This document shows, piece by piece, positions 30,303-39,873 of a stretch of DNA of 64,000 nucleotides. Below the pieces are notes generated by a model that was not told the DNA's origin, searched no databases, and saw only the letters and a list, made by a program, of their open reading frames with translations. This DNA comes from Bifidobacterium sp. B4142 (lineage in GTDB: Bacteria > Actinomycetota > Actinomycetes > Actinomycetales > Bifidobacteriaceae): positions 124,001-188,000 of the forward strand of contig NZ_JAFNMJ010000001.1 in NCBI RefSeq assembly GCF_026537325.1. The letters run 5' to 3'. The position numbers and the translations under genes are program-made. Position 1 is the first letter of the stretch. The number at the start of each line of letters is the position of its first letter.

Positions 30303-30412
30303 TCATTAGTATCGGAACCATTCGGAGGCGTGCACTAGTTTGGCTCACTGATAGCTCCCCTGATGACCAGGTGGTATGCAAGCATGTCGGTATGCACAAG
30401 GGAGAACCGAGA

Positions 30413-31444
30413 ATGGACCAGGTCGGCCAGACCAAGGTCGTAGGAAGGTTGGCCCCTTCGCCGACTGGGCGGATGCATATAGGCAATATCTATGCCTGTC
30501 TGGCGGCCTGGCTGGGTGTCAGGTCGCAAGGGCCTGGTGGGGTTCTGCGGCTCCGCATCGAAGATATAGATACGCCGCGGGTGGTCGAGGATGCTGATCG
30601 TTGGATCATGGATGACCTGGCCTGGCTGGGGTTGGGTTGGGACGGCGAGGCGGTCTACCAGTCCCAGCGCGCCGATATCTATAGTCAGGCATTGAAGCTA
30701 CTGGAATCCCAGCAATTGATCGGCGGGCAGCCTCTGGTTTATCCATGCTTCTGTTCGCGGGCCGATATTCGTGCAGCATCAGCGCCGAATGAAGGTGACG
30801 GGTTCATCGTCTACCTGGGCACTTGCCGAGGACTTTCCCATCAGACAATCAGTGAAAGGCTGGCTCGGGGGCAGAGGCACAGCCTCCGAATCGCGGTCCC
30901 TGATCAGTCCGACGAGCCGGATGCCACCTGTCGCTTCGACGATCTGATCTATGGCCCGCAGTCCTTCAATCTGCCCAGGCAGGTCGGCGATGTGGTCGTC
31001 AGACGTTCGGACGGCTTGGTTTCCTACCAGTTGGCAGTGACGGTGGATGACCTGGCCACGGGTGTCAATCAGATTGTGCGGGGAAGGGACCTGCTAAGGT
31101 CAACAGCCATCCAGATGTGGATCCGGCACCATCTCCAACCGCAGGCTCCTGGTGTTCAGTATGCCCATTTGCCGCTGATCGATGGCGTAGACGGCAGGAG
31201 GATGTCCAAGCGCTTTGGATCGCCGGACCTGGGGTCACTCAGAAGAGACGGCTGGTCGGCCAGGCAGGTGTTGGGAGTCTGCGGCTGGCTCCTGGGTCTC
31301 TTGCAACGGCCCAGACCTGCAAGCGCACAGGAATTGCTGGATGGTTTCACGTGGAACACACTGGCTGCTGACCGCGAAGACCGGCAGCTGGACCTGAGCG
31401 ACCCAAACGAGCTGACCGTTTCTGATGTGAAGCCGAGTTTGTAG
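30413..31444 (+). CDS. gluQ: Glutamyl-Q tRNA(Asp) synthetase
   Basis: Truncated class I synthetase-like enzyme that attaches glutamate to queuosine in tRNA(Asp). It has MHIGN (residues 21-25) as the HIGH motif, RRMSKRFG as the KMSKS equivalent, and the zinc pattern CFC...Y-x3-C (PCFCSRAD, VYLGTCRG), characteristic of YadB/GluQ rather than full GltX. The 343 residues lack an anticodon-binding domain. AGGGAG eight bases before ATG 30413 fixes the start. The presence of GluQ implies the cell makes or salvages queuosine. Confidence 0.9.
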   Translation: MDQVGQTKVVGRLAPSPTGRMHIGNIYACLAAWLGVRSQGPGGVLRLRIEDIDTPRVVEDADRWIMDDLAWLGLGWDGEAVYQSQRADIYSQALKLLESQQLIGGQPLVYPCFCSRADIRAASAPNEGDGFIVYLGTCRGLSHQTISERLARGQRHSLRIAVPDQSDEPDATCRFDDLIYGPQSFNLPRQVGDVVVRRSDGLVSYQLAVTVDDLATGVNQIVRGRDLLRSTAIQMWIRHHLQPQAPGVQYAHLPLIDGVDGRRMSKRFGSPDLGSLRRDGWSARQVLGVCGWLLGLLQRPRPASAQELLDGFTWNTLAADREDRQLDLSDPNELTVSDVKPSL

Positions 31445-33321: not shown

Positions 33322-33430
33322 TTTGGGAATAGGTGTCCTCCTTTCGCTGTTGTAGAAGACAGATGAACCCGTGACGGGGTCTGGTCGAGTGATTCGGCTG
33401 GTCCCGCCGAAGAATGTTGGAGGATGCTCT

Positions 33431-36208
33431 ATGAACGAAAACTTCACCACCATGGCTCAGCAGGCCATCGGCGATGCTATCCAGTCGGCCTCGGCGGCCG
33501 GCAACCCCCAGGTGGATGTGCTCCATCTGTTGGACTCTCTGCTGCGTCAGCAGTCCGGCGTGGTGCCTGGGCTGATCCAAGCGGCCGGTGGTGACAGCCA
33601 ACGGGTCGGAGCCGAGGTCCGTCAGGCCTTGGTGGCTCTGCCATCGGCCAGCGGATCTACGGCCTCGCAACCCGATGCCAGCCGTCAGCTCAGCATGGCT
33701 TTGGCCCAGGCTGAGAAGGAAATGCAGGCCATGGGGGATGAATACGTCTCCACCGAGCACCTGCTTATCGCCATCGCCCAGGGTCCCTCGCAGGCCGCCG
33801 ATATTCTGAATCGGAACGGGTTGCAGGCTGATACCCTGCGCAAGGCCGTGCCCCAGGTGCGCGGCGGCGCCAAGGTGACCAGCCCGGATGCTGAGGGCAC
33901 CTACAAGGCCCTGGAGAAGTACTCCACCGATCTGACCGCACAGGCCAAGGAGGGCAAGCTGGATCCAGTCATCGGCAGGGACCAGGAGATTCGTCGTGTC
34001 ATGCAGATCCTTTCCCGGCGTACCAAGAACAACCCTGTCCTCATCGGAGAGCCCGGCGTGGGCAAGACCGCTGTGGTCGAGGGCCTGGCTGAGCGTATCG
34101 TGGCGGGCGACGTACCCACCACCCTGCAAGGTAAGAAGCTGATCTCCCTGGATCTGAGCTCCATGGTGGCTGGCAGCAAGTACCGTGGCGAATTCGAGGA
34201 ACGACTCAAGGCCGTCCTCAATGAGATCAAGAGCGCCAACGGCCAGGTCATCACCTTCATTGACGAGATCCACACCATCGTCGGTGCTGGTGCCGCCGAG
34301 GGATCCATGGATGCGGGCAACATGCTCAAGCCCATGCTGGCCAGGGGCGAACTGCGCTTGATCGGCGCCACCACCTTGGACGAATACCGTGAAAACATCG
34401 AGAAGGATCCGGCTCTGGAGCGCCGCTTCCAGCAGGTCTTCGTGGGCGAGCCCTCCGTGGAGGACACCGTGGCCATCCTGCGTGGTCTCAAGCAGCGTTA
34501 TGAGGCCCACCACAAGGTGACCATCGGGGATGATGCCCTGGTGGCTGCGGCCACCCTTTCCAACCGGTATATCTCGGGTCGTCAGCTGCCAGACAAGGCC
34601 ATCGACCTGGTTGACGAGGCCGCTGCACATCTGCGGATGGAGCTGGACTCCCAGCCTGAGGAAATCGACGAGCTTCAACGTCGCGTCACCCGTCTGGAGA
34701 TGGAGGAGATGCAGCTGAAGAAGGCTGATGACCCGGCCTCCAAGGACCGTCTGAGCAAGTTGCAGGCCGAGCTGGCGGACTCCCGCGAAAAGCTGGGCGG
34801 CCTCAAGGCCCGCTGGGAGAACGAGAAGGCTGGCCATAACAAGGTCGGTGACCTGCGTGCTCAGCTGGACGCCAAGCGGGTCGAGGCCGACAAGGCCACC
34901 CGCGAAGGTGATCTGGAGAAGGCCTCCCGCATTCTCTACGGGGAGATTCCAGGCATTCGCAAGCAGTTGGCCCAGGCGGAGAACGCCGCCGAGCAGGCTA
35001 AGAACGCCTCCAATGATGCTGGTCCCGATGGGGCTGACATCGCTGGGGGGGCAGCCCAGGAGCCCATGGTTCCTGACCATGTTGATGCGGATTCCGTAGC
35101 GGAGATCGTCTCTGATTGGACCGGCATCCCTGTGGGGCGGCTCATGGAGGGCGAGAATGAGAAGCTCTTGCATATGGAGGACTACCTGGGCAAACGGGTG
35201 GTCGGCCAGAAAGAGGCCATCCATGCAGTTTCCGACGCGGTCCGGCGCTCGCGTGCCGGCATCGCCGACCCTGACAGGCCCACCGGATCCTTCATGTTCC
35301 TGGGCCCCACCGGCGTGGGCAAGACGGAGCTGGCCAAGGCCTTGGCCGACTTCCTCTTCGACGACGAGAAGGCCATGGTCCGCATCGACATGTCAGAGTA
35401 CATGGAGAAGGCCTCGGTCTCCCGGCTGATCGGCGCTGCTCCCGGCTACGTGGGCTATGAGGAGGGCGGCCAGCTGACCGAAGCCGTGCGTCGGCGGCCC
35501 TACTCGGTGGTACTCTTCGACGAGGTGGAGAAGGCCAACCCTGAAGTCTTCGATCTGCTCCTGCAGGTTCTGGACGACGGCAGGCTGACTGACGGCCAGG
35601 GCAGGACGGTGGACTTCAAGAACACCATCCTGATCATGACCTCCAACCTTGGCTCGCAGTTCCTGGTCCGGGACGACCTGGATGAGGAGGCCAAGCGCAA
35701 GGCCGTCATGGATGCTGTCCACGCCAACTTCAAGCCCGAGTTCATCAACCGGTTGGATGATCTGGTCATCTTCCATCCGCTGACCCGCGACGAGCTGGGT
35801 TCCATTGTGGATATCCAGGTCCGGCAAGTGGCCCAGCGGCTGACCGATCGGCGTATCACCCTGGATGTCACCGACTCCGCTAGGGAGTGGCTGGCCAACG
35901 TGGGCTACGATCCGGCCTTCGGCGCCCGTCCTTTGCGTCGGCTGGTGCAGACCGAGGTGGGCGACCAACTGGCTAGGATGCTGCTTGCCGGGAAGGTCCA
36001 CGACGGTGACACGGTCCTAGTGGACCAAACCGGCGGCGACCATCTGGAACTGACTGCCTGGCCCACCGAGAATCTGGTCGATGATTCGGTCAAGGTCGAT
36101 GGTGTGACGGCTGACGGTGATGCTGATGCCGACGATGCCGGACGCGATGGTGGCCGTGGCCGTCATGCTGCGCGTGGCGATGACCAAGGTCAGGGCCAGA
36201 CTCACTGA
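33431..36208 (+). CDS. clpB: ATP-dependent disaggregase ClpB
   Basis: Hexameric AAA+ chaperone that extracts proteins from aggregates together with DnaK. In order: N-domain (1-150), first AAA module with GEPGVGKT near residue 207 and [12 protein letters not shown], a coiled-coil middle domain (about 410-520, [17 protein letters not shown]), and second AAA module with GPTGVGKT near 625 and the sensor/box FGARPLRR. The C-terminus carries about 35 extra residues rich in Asp and Gly after the fold ends. GGAGGA six bases upstream decides ATG 33431. Total 925 residues. Confidence 0.98.
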
Positions 36209-36281: not shown

Positions 36282-38357
36282 TCAGTCCATAGCAGCAGCT
36301 GGGTCCCTGCCCTTTTGCATGGGCTTCCACTGGCTGTCAACGATGATCTGGGGGCGTCGTGCCGCGACTGTCGGAAGCTGGTCCGTGTCGATCAGGGCGA
36401 GGTGCAGCCAGCGACGGCGCAGGCGCCGCAACCGGTGCAGACGACGAACGTTGAGCATGGCTAGGATGGAGGACAGAGCCCCTGTTACCGCTGCGATCAT
36501 GGGGTTGAGCATCCAGCCTAGGAAGGGTTGGCAGATTCCGGTAGCAATGACCAGGGCGATGACGTTGTAGACAGTGGACCAGGTCAGGTTCTCCCTGATG
36601 ACCTGGGTGGTGGCTCGGCTCAGTTCTATGGCCCTACTGGTTCCGTCCAAGTCGCCCTGCTGCAGGATAAGGTCCGGCTGTGGCAGGTCGATGTCGTCTG
36701 CGGCTTCGTCCGTGTCAGCCTGAAGTTTTGGACCCAAAGCGATGTCCACCTGAGCCCTGGCCGTCAGTTCGGGATCCGCTGTGGTCCCAGCTGCCAGGGC
36801 CACCAGGCTGGTTCGGCCCTGCTTTGGGGCGGATGCTGGGTCTTGACCTGTCTGATCAAGTGGGATGCCCCTGTTGGTCCGGGTCAGGTCGTGATTGAGC
36901 CGATCCATGCATTCGCGCTTGCGCTCGGGGGTCAGCCGGGTGATCAGCATATCCGCGCCCGCCTGGCGGGCTGCCCGCTCAATCCTGTCGTCCGGCTGGC
37001 GGCTCCCGTCCAGGATCAGGCTGCTTACTCGCAGGGCGCGTAGATGGGTGGCGGTCCGGGTCAGGGATTCCGTGTGGACACCCTGGCCCTCCGCGTCGTC
37101 GGGATCCAGTAGAGAGGAGTCATCCAGAATCAGGGTGTGCACCCGGCCCAGGTGGTTCATGGCCCGTGGCGAGGTGAAGAGCAGACCGTGTGCCAGACCC
37201 GTCTCCAGGCTGGTTCGGAAGGCCATGGGGATGGTCATGGCTGCGACGGCGGGGCAGGCGATGGTCAGTACACAGACGGCATTGCCTACAGCATGGGCCA
37301 AGTGGGGCTGCGGGCCCAGCATGAGCCAGAGCATGAAGGTCCAGACGGCCAGAATCATGATCAGGGCGATGGCTGTGTGGACGATACGATCCATCCTGCG
37401 CATAGCGGGGGATCGCTCGGCCAGGGCCTGGGGGATGATCTTCACGAGCCTGGCTGCATAGGTGTTGTCGCCGGCGGCATCCACTCGGATGGACAGTCGA
37501 CCCTCGAGGATCTTGCTGGAGGCCAGGATTCGATCGCCGGGTCCGCACGGCCGGGGTCTGTCATCACCTGTCAGCTCGCTGTCGTCCACCAAGGCCGATC
37601 CTGACTCCACAAGCCCATCGGCCGCTGGGCGCTCGCCTGTGCGTACCAGAAGCAGGTTGCCTGGGCGGATCTGGTCACGTGCAAGTATCTGGGCGGGGAC
37701 TGTCTGAGGATGCTGAGAATCGGCCACCAGACCTGAGGCTGGGCGGATCTCCGTCAGGTGGTTCAAGGAAGCCACCAGGGAGGCTTCCATTCTGGTGCCG
37801 ATGACCCGGGCCAGTAGCAGGAGGGTGATGACCACGCCGACCAGATCGAAGTAAGGGGATCGGGAGCCTTCCGGCAGCAGGGATCCAGCCAGGCAGGTAG
37901 CCAGGCTGTATAGGTAGGCCAGGCTTGTGGCCAGCGCGGCCAGGAGATCGGGGCTGCAGCGGTGCTCGGTCATGGCCTTCCACCCGCCTGTGAGTGTTTC
38001 ACGGCCGCCGTAGAAGATGACCGGGGCTATCAGAATAGCCTGGACCGTGGGGCTGGTCAGCCAAGAAGGAATCAGATCGGGGCCGAAGCGATCGAACAGA
38101 TCCAGAACTAAAACAGGCGCAGTCAGCAGGGCACTTACGATGGTTGGCCTGAGCAGGCGGTGGCTGCGAGAATCCAGATCAGCCCCCCATTCGCCCCAGT
38201 CCTCCGGATCATGCCAGGGGCGGTTGGCTGGGGAGTCTGCGGCTGCATCCTGGTCGCTGGCATGAGCCGACGGCATGAGGAAGTACCAGATGATCAGCCA
38301 GGTGACCGCACAGGCCACGACCAGATCTGCTATCGCCAGGAAGATATCGACACCCAC
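36282..38357 (-). CDS. P-type ATPase-like membrane protein lacking catalytic motifs
   Basis: The layout is that of a heavy-metal (P1B) ATPase: membrane pairs, an actuator domain (VRTGERPAADGLVESGSAL), TM6 with a CP motif, a P-domain, and the last helix pair (WSTVYNVIALVIATG, NPMIAAVTGALSSILAMLN). The catalytic residues are gone: DKTGT reads DDSSL (near 37100-37125), TGES reads TGDD (near 37565), CPC reads CPA (near 37245), GDGxNDxPAL reads AGTTADPEL (near 36780), and the nucleotide-binding domain with its SEHP-type motif is reduced to a stub. The frame is open for 691 residues with no stop or shift. GTG 38357 is chosen for GAAGGAG seven bases upstream. Probably a pseudoenzyme; function unknown. 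Confidence 0.8.
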   Translation of the reverse strand: MGVDIFLAIADLVVACAVTWLIIWYFLMPSAHASDQDAAADSPANRPWHDPEDWGEWGADLDSRSHRLLRPTIVSALLTAPVLVLDLFDRFGPDLIPSWLTSPTVQAILIAPVIFYGGRETLTGGWKAMTEHRCSPDLLAALATSLAYLYSLATCLAGSLLPEGSRSPYFDLVGVVITLLLLARVIGTRMEASLVASLNHLTEIRPASGLVADSQHPQTVPAQILARDQIRPGNLLLVRTGERPAADGLVESGSALVDDSELTGDDRPRPCGPGDRILASSKILEGRLSIRVDAAGDNTYAARLVKIIPQALAERSPAMRRMDRIVHTAIALIMILAVWTFMLWLMLGPQPHLAHAVGNAVCVLTIACPAVAAMTIPMAFRTSLETGLAHGLLFTSPRAMNHLGRVHTLILDDSSLLDPDDAEGQGVHTESLTRTATHLRALRVSSLILDGSRQPDDRIERAARQAGADMLITRLTPERKRECMDRLNHDLTRTNRGIPLDQTGQDPASAPKQGRTSLVALAAGTTADPELTARAQVDIALGPKLQADTDEAADDIDLPQPDLILQQGDLDGTSRAIELSRATTQVIRENLTWSTVYNVIALVIATGICQPFLGWMLNPMIAAVTGALSSILAMLNVRRLHRLRRLRRRWLHLALIDTDQLPTVAARRPQIIVDSQWKPMQKGRDPAAAMD

Positions 38358-38514
38358 GGATCTCCTTCGGTCTTGCTCCAACCCCTTAATATCTCCTATT
38401 GTGCCCTTCATCGCGGCCCGGCACAGGTCTTAAGGCTGATTCCTTGCGGAAAAAACGAATTCTCGAATTATCGCCGGCAACCTGGTTTTCGGGTCCAGTG
38501 CTTGAGATTAACTA

Positions 38515-38527
38515 GAACATATGTTCG
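38515..38527. promoter_or_regulatory. Candidate LexA (SOS) box over the rmuC start
   Basis: The perfect palindrome GAACATATGTTC followed by G fits the actinobacterial/Bacillus SOS box CGAAC-N4-GTTCG at all but the first base. It covers the rmuC start codon (38521-38523). Confidence 0.65.
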
Positions 38528-39873
38528 ATTCTACGTCATCAGTGGTCATGGTGGTGCTTCTCCTGCTGATCGGTATAGTCCTGGGGGGATTGGCAGGGTA
38601 TGTGCTGGGTCGCACCCAGGGCCGGAGGGCCGTCGGCATGGGATCCGACGGCCAGGTGGATGAACTGCGCGCTCAGCTGGATCAGGCCCAGGAACAGCTC
38701 CATGGATCCGATGCGGCCCTGGTCGAGGCACGAACCAAGGTGGACGGTCTGAACCGCGAGCTCTCCTTTGTCAAGTCCCAGCTGGCCCAGGCCCAGCAGG
38801 CGGAGCAGATCAGAATCGAGCGGGAGCGCCGCCGCGCCCAGGCTCAGGAGGAGGAGAAGCGGCGCAGGCAGGCAGAGAGCATGGAGGAGGAGAGCAAGGT
38901 GCTCTCGGCTCTGGCCCCCGTGCAAAAGAATTTGGATGCCCTCCAGCATAAGGTGGCCCAGATCGAGGAGGGCCGCAAGCAGGAGATGGGCTCCTTGGGA
39001 CAGCAGCTGAAGAGTCTGGGCGAGCAGCAGGGGAGACTGGACAAGGAGACCAGCTCCCTGGCTTCGGCCCTACGCAACAACAAGGTGCGCGGCGCATGGG
39101 GTGAGGCTCAGCTCAGGAATATCGTCGAGTCGGCGGGGCTCTTGGAGCATGTGGACTTCGACACCCAGGTGGTGGTCACCGCCTCGGATGGTCGCGTCCT
39201 GCGTCCCGACATGGTGGTTCACCTGCCCGGTGGCAAGACCATTCCTATCGATGCCAAGGCCCCCTATTCCGACTACCAGCGGGCCTGTGAGATCCCCGAC
39301 ACTGCTTCGGATGATGAGCTGCGCCGCCGGGACGAACTGCTCAAGGCGCATGCCCGGGCCCTGCGCGAGCACGTCAAGGCCCTGGCGGACAAGGAGTACT
39401 GGAACGCCTTCGAAACGGCCCCGGACTTCGTGGTGGCCTTCATCCCCAACGACTCCCTTCTGCAGGCCGCCCTGGAGGTGGACCCTACCCTGATGGATGA
39501 CGCCTTTGCCCAAAAGGTGGCCCTGACCTCGCCGGTGACCCTCTGGGCTGTGCTCAAGTCGGTAGCCTATGCCTGGCAGCAGCAGAACCTGTCCGAGGAC
39601 GCTCGCACCCTCTTCACGTTGACCCACGAGCTCTATGACCGCTTTGTGGTTCTGGGCGATCGGGCCAACAGACTGGGCCGTTCCATCACTGCCACGGTGA
39701 CCGCCTACAACAAGTTCGCTTCCTCTTTGGAGTCGCGCGTTCTGGTCACAGCCCGCAAGCTGCAGCAGATGGATCCCTCCAAGGTCATCGACTCGGTCGA
39801 CATGATCGATTCAGACAAGGGCAATATCAGGGAGCTGACCGCGCCGGAAGCTTTGCCTGACCAAGGGCGGTAA
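38521..39873 (+). CDS. rmuC: DNA recombination protein RmuC
   Basis: RmuC-family protein with a nuclease-like fold, linked genetically to limiting DNA inversions. An N-terminal membrane helix (VVMVVLLLLIGIVLGGLAGY) is followed by a long Glu/Gln/Arg coiled coil (about residues 40-180) and the RmuC domain: GAWGEAQLRNIVESAGL, KTIPIDAKAPYSDYQ and FETAPDFVVAFIPND. ATG 38521 lacks a ribosome binding site; ATG 38548 is an alternative. A LexA-type box overlaps the start, suggesting DNA-damage control. Length 450. Confidence 0.93.
   Translation: MFDSTSSVVMVVLLLLIGIVLGGLAGYVLGRTQGRRAVGMGSDGQVDELRAQLDQAQEQLHGSDAALVEARTKVDGLNRELSFVKSQLAQAQQAEQIRIERERRRAQAQEEEKRRRQAESMEEESKVLSALAPVQKNLDALQHKVAQIEEGRKQEMGSLGQQLKSLGEQQGRLDKETSSLASALRNNKVRGAWGEAQLRNIVESAGLLEHVDFDTQVVVTASDGRVLRPDMVVHLPGGKTIPIDAKAPYSDYQRACEIPDTASDDELRRRDELLKAHARALREHVKALADKEYWNAFETAPDFVVAFIPNDSLLQAALEVDPTLMDDAFAQKVALTSPVTLWAVLKSVAYAWQQQNLSEDARTLFTLTHELYDRFVVLGDRANRLGRSITATVTAYNKFASSLESRVLVTARKLQQMDPSKVIDSVDMIDSDKGNIRELTAPEALPDQGR

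Follow-up and report, generated by a model that had tools for sequence, protein, structure and literature searches.

In the window, the whole 64,000-nucleotide stretch of DNA that was analysed, a gene on the minus strand runs from a GTG start at 38357 to a stop codon ending at 36282. The first-pass annotation, which gave no strand, had described an uninterrupted frame of 691 codons with a strong ribosome binding site, and this is what the sequence holds: no internal stop is present and GAAGGAG lies four bases upstream of the GTG. An in-frame ATG at 38411 offers an alternative start that is unconserved even among near relatives; all 26 single-frame copies of the gene in the window's genus have, by eye, a GTG, ATG or TTG at the position of the GTG with a GGAG upstream. 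Judged by their sequences, the two flanking genes are taken to be clpB and an rmuC-like gene. The promoter and terminator scan returned none of either. The features used below are as follows.

36282..38357, minus strand: pseudo-P1B-ATPase gene, 691 codons plus stop (open reading frame reading and syntenic orthologues)
38362..38368, minus strand: ribosome binding site GAAGGAG; the starts of relatives have a similar site
38274..38357, minus strand: N-terminal helix, residues 1-28, MGxDIF...TW (conservation across copies)
37788..38153, minus strand: membrane helices MA, MB, M1 and M2, residues 69-190, limits approximate and set by eye (LpCopA 3rfu homology, hydropathy, conservation)
37404..37787, minus strand: actuator (A) domain region, residues 191-318, limits approximate (Pfam PF00122)
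37560..37571, minus strand: TGDD replacing TGES, residues 263-266 (alignment)
37143..37403, minus strand: M3-M4, residues 319-405, with the lowest omega of the three fitted regions, 0.03
37248..37256, minus strand: CPA replacing the copper-binding CPC, residues 368-370 (alignment)
36678..37142, minus strand: P-domain remnant, residues 406-560, without the N-domain insert (3rfu alignment)
37110..37124, minus strand: DDSSL replacing DKTGT, residues 412-416, the first D being the phosphorylatable position (alignment)
36765..36791, minus strand: AGTTADPEL replacing GDGxNDxPAL, residues 523-531 (alignment)
36423..36677, minus strand: M5-M6, residues 561-645, with Y597 and N598 kept and G626 at the place of the M6 Met (alignment)
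33371..36208, plus strand: clpB, convergent neighbour and synteny anchor (open reading frame reading)
38521..39873, plus strand: rmuC-like gene, divergent neighbour and synteny anchor (open reading frame reading)

The sole Pfam match to the window protein is the E1-E2 ATPase family PF00122, at 107.5 bits (cut-off 28.1). Two NCBIfam models matched below their cut-offs, TIGR01511 at 203.4 bits (curated cut-off 397) and TIGR01494 at 59.7 bits (cut-off 62.3), and the PHROGs search gave one generic ATPase family. Among solved structures, copper ATPases match most closely, the CopA-type Cu(I) P1B pumps LpCopA (3rfu) and AfCopA (7r0g) being among the best; 3rfu came first (E 5e-55), and its alignment covers residues 73-446 and 517-643 and leaves the LpCopA N-domain without a counterpart. 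Judged by sequence, the protein is predicted to share the P-type ATPase fold, with the E1-E2 domain and the P1B membrane core that the first-pass annotation had recognized. It differs from LpCopA and AfCopA in having no N-domain, in reading DDSSL, TGDD and CPA, and in carrying an extra N-terminal helix.

Residue sites were named through alignment to the sister-genus copy L048, and the residue table uses LpCopA numbering, which we take simply as labels. The motifs of an active P-type ATPase are altered throughout, and all four readings given earlier (DDSSL, TGDD, CPA, AGTTADPEL) are correct. DDSSL stands for DKTGT with D412 retained, TGDD for the actuator TGE(S) and AGTTADPEL for the GDGxND hinge, and 111 residues separate D412 from the GDG position, leaving no N-domain. 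The P1B-1 signature (CPC in M4, YN in M5, MxxSS in M6) is likewise broken; CPC reads CPA and the M6 Met is Gly, with YN present. The earlier statement that every catalytic motif was lost thus holds for the K, T and G of DKTGT and for TGES, CPC and GDGxND, but not for three individual residues, as D412, the xxPxxK lysine K480 and the last Asp of GDGxND, D528, remain.

Each of the 27 genomes of the window's genus yielded an orthologue in a protein search, flanked in every case by clpB and rmuC, and the frame is single in 26 of them. The remaining copy, in genome G016 (L037, at about 5.6-7.6 kb), consists of two overlapping frames and is the sole split copy in the genus, reflecting either a sequencing error or a recent loss; it reads DQSAI at the DKTGT position and was excluded from the residue counts (n=26). 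In these 26 copies the position of the phosphorylated Asp holds Asp in 24 and Glu in two, the Lys, first Thr and Gly of DKTGT are absent from all, and the second Thr occurs once. The xxPxxK Lys is kept in 24/26 and the last Asp of GDGxND in 16/26. The actuator Glu survives in one of the 21 copies that have the domain, and the domain is wholly missing from five others (L024, L025, L026, L028 and L030, in genomes G001, G002, G013, G022 and G026), which retain the membrane blocks. No cupredoxin or YHS domain was detected in the three copies of the gene that were scanned.

The retained Asp and Lys residues, together with a Glu that L021 and L022 place one position past the actuator Glu, could be read as favouring a P-type pump that is still catalytically active, with D412 phosphorylated inside a diverged motif. 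This reading is extremely improbable, as K, T and G are gone from every copy, the actuator Glu is lost in 20/21, the N-domain is absent and two copies have replaced the Asp itself by Glu. From the established mechanism, a protein that has lost the N-domain, the Lys and Thr of DKTGT, the GDG hinge and the actuator Glu would not be expected to go through the usual phosphorylation cycle.

The copper site has decayed unevenly. The first Cys of CPC is kept in 23/26 copies and the second in five (lost in 21), the M6 Met in five and the copper-entry Met in one; all 13 copies of the window clade have lost the second Cys, the M6 Met and the entry Met. CPC, the M5 Asn and the M6 Met are kept together in 5/26 copies, from two other clades. 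In AfCopA, the residues assigned to the copper site in parts of PMC9433437 are M158, E205, D336, C380, C382, YN and MxxSS. Since the membrane blocks are the part of the protein that was retained, and five copies keep these ligands, it could be supposed that the protein is a transporter of another sort, offering a passive or proton-coupled metal path without phosphorylation. We consider this unlikely, given the loss of all three ligands throughout the window clade and the impaired copper binding that the same parts of PMC9433437 describe for AfCopA mutants of the CPC Cys, YN or MxxSS.

Relatives outside the genus place these losses in order. In total, 33 copies from four sister genera were read, 27 obtained through a family search and six fetched. 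These copies (L048-L074, L190-L194 and L198) are copper-type P1B ATPases that have complete catalytic motifs and no N-domain, and are in that sense stranger than the window gene. DKTGT, TGES, SGD, the xxPxxK Lys, GDGxND, CPC, YN and the M6 Met are present in 33/33. The spacing from DKTGT to GDGxND is 100-144 residues in 32 of them and 178 in one, which has a low-complexity linker, as compared to 198-220 residues in 11 N-domain-bearing homologues, four outgroups included. No SEHP-type motif was found in the copies read; three of them have a DHP within the linker, about 17 residues past DKTGT. Both of the two copies scanned carry cupredoxin and YHS domains. The sister-genus copies resemble the window gene in belonging to one clade with it, in the N-terminal helix and in the missing N-domain, and differ from it in keeping the catalytic motifs and copper ligands and in these additional domains.

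With a 151-residue query spanning the junction from DKTGT to GDG, 56 of 189 family genomes gave a single match starting at residue 1 or 2 of it. One of these, G073, proved on reading to have an N-domain, which leaves 55, of which 31 were read; with G186 and G187 the N-domain-less tally comes to 57 genomes in four genera, none of them the window's genus. Outside the family, no such form appeared among the matches listed in a search of the order (396 genomes, some 361 of them from other families) or of the phylum (296 genomes), each search listing about 150 matches and scoring few candidates per genome. No separate gene that might supply the N-domain was seen: a profile of three N-domains matched only inside frames of at least 640 residues. 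In 16 N-domain-less genomes this profile detected no free-standing N-domain and in nine of them no match at all, although a very divergent one could escape it. Neighbouring stretches, covering about 1.5 kb past the match or 6-6.5 kb in total, showed clpB and rmuC together beside 14 of the 33 copies, rmuC alone beside 11, clpB alone beside two and neither beside six, among them both g15 copies. As the flanking genes vary in this way, the gene order is common to genera g3, g5 and g11 and does not extend to every species.

The careful tree (33 of 70 prepared rows, 605 columns, mixture model) joins the N-domain-less copies and the copies of the window gene in one clade with bootstrap 100 and SH-aLRT 100. 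Inside it the copies of the window gene form a clade of their own (95/91), which nests in a group with genus g5 (99/97). A quick tree of 49 of the 70 rows, which warns of long branches meeting, and a quick mixture tree of 33 of the 70 both agree with it. The window gene thus descends from within the N-domain-less copper ATPases, and most simply the N-domain would have been lost once, before these genera split. The first-pass annotation had the nucleotide-binding domain mostly missing; it is gone entirely, and its loss is older than that of catalysis, as the DKTGT-intact relatives also lack it, which rules out that the domain disappeared in the same decay. The ancestor was a P1B ATPase for copper, cupredoxin-like at its N-terminal end and with a YHS domain at the C-terminus, its N-domain already gone. 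The next changes, in the simplest reading, fall on the stem of the window's genus or shortly afterwards: DKTGT lost its K, T and G, the actuator Glu decayed, and the cupredoxin and YHS parts disappeared. The simplest course from there has copper ligands lost in the clade of the window gene and its nearer sisters (21 copies), and the actuator domain in the five genomes named above. Throughout, the membrane helices stayed under purifying selection as the N-terminal helix grew more conserved. The 21-copy clade sits on a long stem (1.6 changes per column), which indicates that an episode of fast change preceded the present constraint.

Selection on the gene is measurable and strong. Codon maximum-likelihood omega (IQ-TREE) is 0.103 in the window clade of 13 copies, and 0.106 and 0.127 in two three-copy clades, the former of which keeps CPC. 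Within the window clade it is 0.117 from the start to M2, 0.032 in M3-M4 and 0.172 in the P remnant, the last showing that the cytosolic part is not free of constraint there. Pairwise NG86 ratios, from a set of 19 pairs of which two were saturated and gave none, are 0.09-0.22 in nine close pairs and 0.12-0.42 in eight further ones, with relaxed values in divergent pairs (L007-L020 0.42, L025-L030 0.29, L021-L022 0.26). In a set of seven genome pairs compared for all three genes, the ratio is 0.02-0.08 for ClpB, 0.03-0.15 for RmuC and 0.14-0.42 for the window gene. Among G000, G007 and G019, the gene gives 0.14-0.16 and the N-domain-bearing copper ATPase, computed on whole open frames, 0.09-0.12, so that the former is 1.4-1.7 times the latter. 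The gene is therefore kept strictly, though somewhat less so than a pump of the working type. Under simple neutral substitution at d = 0.26, the modelled frame stayed free of stops in one of 1000 runs and gained 7.6 on average, which argues that the intact frame is not due to chance.

A young pseudogene is ruled out by the synteny, the omega values and the losses shared across the genus. Neither of the findings that the first-pass annotation had named as marks of one was obtained: no orthologue in the genus has DKTGT, the 33 DKTGT copies elsewhere lack the N-domain, and omega lies far from 1. Slow decay would be a different matter, with the gene serving no function any longer but spared frameshifts in most lineages, in keeping with the one split copy of 27, the five copies without an actuator domain and the pairs at 0.26-0.42. 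It is nonetheless very unlikely in view of omega at 0.10-0.13 in three clades, 26 copies free of stops where the neutral model predicts several, and the conserved membrane blocks.

Where constraint lies has shifted across the genus, the membrane helices and the N-terminal helix being the conserved parts. Invariant positions were compared between 13 of the 26 copies of the gene and 13 of the 33 N-domain-less copies, chosen to even diversity, the overall identity being 0.42 in the former and 0.59 in the latter. In the membrane blocks 18-20% of positions are invariant, against 33-44% in the catalytically complete relatives; in the P remnant 5/155 (3%), against 53 (34%); and in the N-terminal helix 9/28 (32%), against 3 (11%). 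The A-domain has 1/128, against 35, a count that is low largely because the domain is missing from five of the 13 rows. In several pairs the N-terminal helix shows little synonymous change as well, so its conservation may partly serve translation initiation; between L023 and L032, however, synonymous change is 0.65 and non-synonymous 0.016, and at least there the constraint on the protein is real.

Taken together, catalytic residues have been lost from a gene that selection has kept across species (orthologues in 27/27 genomes, K, T and G lost in 26/26, omega 0.10). The best explanation, in which we place considerable confidence, is that of a fixed, genus-wide pseudoenzyme derived from an N-domain-less copper P1B ATPase and presumably no longer pumping; a fixed, non-pumping pseudoenzyme is what the first-pass annotation had proposed. 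Points that count against it include the retention of the Asp (24/26), the xxPxxK Lys (24/26) and the last GDGxND Asp (16/26), the split copy in G016, the relaxed pairs, ratios that far exceed those of ClpB and RmuC, and the constraint on the P remnant in the window clade. ATP-driven pumping would be beyond such a protein, and its membrane part probably serves something else.

Among roles other than pumping, metal sensing had been one suggestion. A membrane site that still binds copper, as a store or a sensor, and through which the N-domain-bearing copper ATPase is signalled to or regulated, would suit the two clades that keep CPC and the M6 Met (5/26 copies). For the window clade, sensing is made less likely by the loss of the second Cys and the M6 Met in 13/13, and we regard the role as improbable overall, since ligands are lost in 21/26 copies and constraint in the two ligand-less clades fitted (omega 0.103 and 0.127) is much the same as in the fitted clade that keeps CPC (0.106). 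Tentatively, the membrane core of the pseudoenzyme may instead be a non-pumping scaffold or regulatory subunit that uses its N-terminal helix and membrane face to bind another membrane protein. This weaker proposal fits what selection keeps, namely the helix bundle with its outer loops and the N-terminal helix.

The obvious candidate partner, a reasonable one with others equally open, is the cupredoxin copper ATPase of the same genome, C15, a 1021-residue frame at another locus. It is of the same family as the window protein and shares its N-terminal helix, and is unlike it in having intact motifs and an SEHP-containing N-domain, so that DKTGT and GDG stand 217 residues apart. Homologous frames of 952-1091 residues occur in 27/27 genomes of the genus, and motifs and N-domain were read in five. 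As both genes are present in all genomes, their co-occurrence is uninformative on partnership.

The sister-genus proteins themselves could be working N-domain-less copper pumps that draw on acetyl phosphate or a similarly small phosphodonor, the window gene being a retired descendant recruited as a membrane subunit. Several observations support this, although as a whole it is still quite unlikely: all 33 copies keep the catalytic motifs together with CPC, YN and the M6 Met, at a dN/dS of 0.08-0.19 (15 closest pairs), and in five single-contig genomes, with 24 E1-E2 loci listed, no ATPase other than the N-domain-less protein has CPC in M4 (5/5). The absence of a free-standing N-domain in the 16 genomes searched also supports it. 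The phosphoketolase pathway yields acetyl phosphate in bulk, and phosphoketolase is present in 8/8 genomes checked, the window's own included; the family is an unspecific marker, being over cut-off in 3/14 control genomes as well. An H,K-ATPase with a blocked ATP pocket still hydrolyses acetyl phosphate, according to parts of PMC4215238.

A P-type fold without the cycle has a possible parallel in human TMEM94, which differs from the window protein in having ten helices and in retaining an N-like domain. We take ERMA to be the same protein as TMEM94. Structures described in the consulted portions of PMC12134183 show a P-type-ATPase fold with no evidence of ATP binding, phosphorylation or a Post-Albers cycle, and its authors leave Mg ATPase activity open there; a 2026 paper (PMC13322241) calls ERMA the ER Mg ATPase. 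Exact-phrase searches of titles and abstracts in the open-licence literature found no report of a bacterial P-type-ATPase pseudoenzyme, and exact phrases gave none of a P-type ATPase without an N-domain among the matches listed. The portions seen of PMC10654040 and PMC12363816 mention neither N-domain loss nor loss of catalysis. The series of losses can be read in living genomes, from the complete pump through forms without the N-domain, the catalytic motif and the copper ligands to those without the actuator domain, and it makes testable whether a P-type cycle is possible without an N-domain and what use a P-type membrane core has that cannot pump.

Two minor observations were made besides. 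In L001 and the sister-genus copies, the cupredoxin-like domain sits after a single N-terminal helix and before MA; given one preceding helix, the usual total of eight and an A-domain in the cytosol, it would be cytosolic unless a helix, counted by eye, was miscounted. Finally, the window frame at 30371-31444 resembles, by eye, a glutamyl-Q tRNA(Asp) synthetase.
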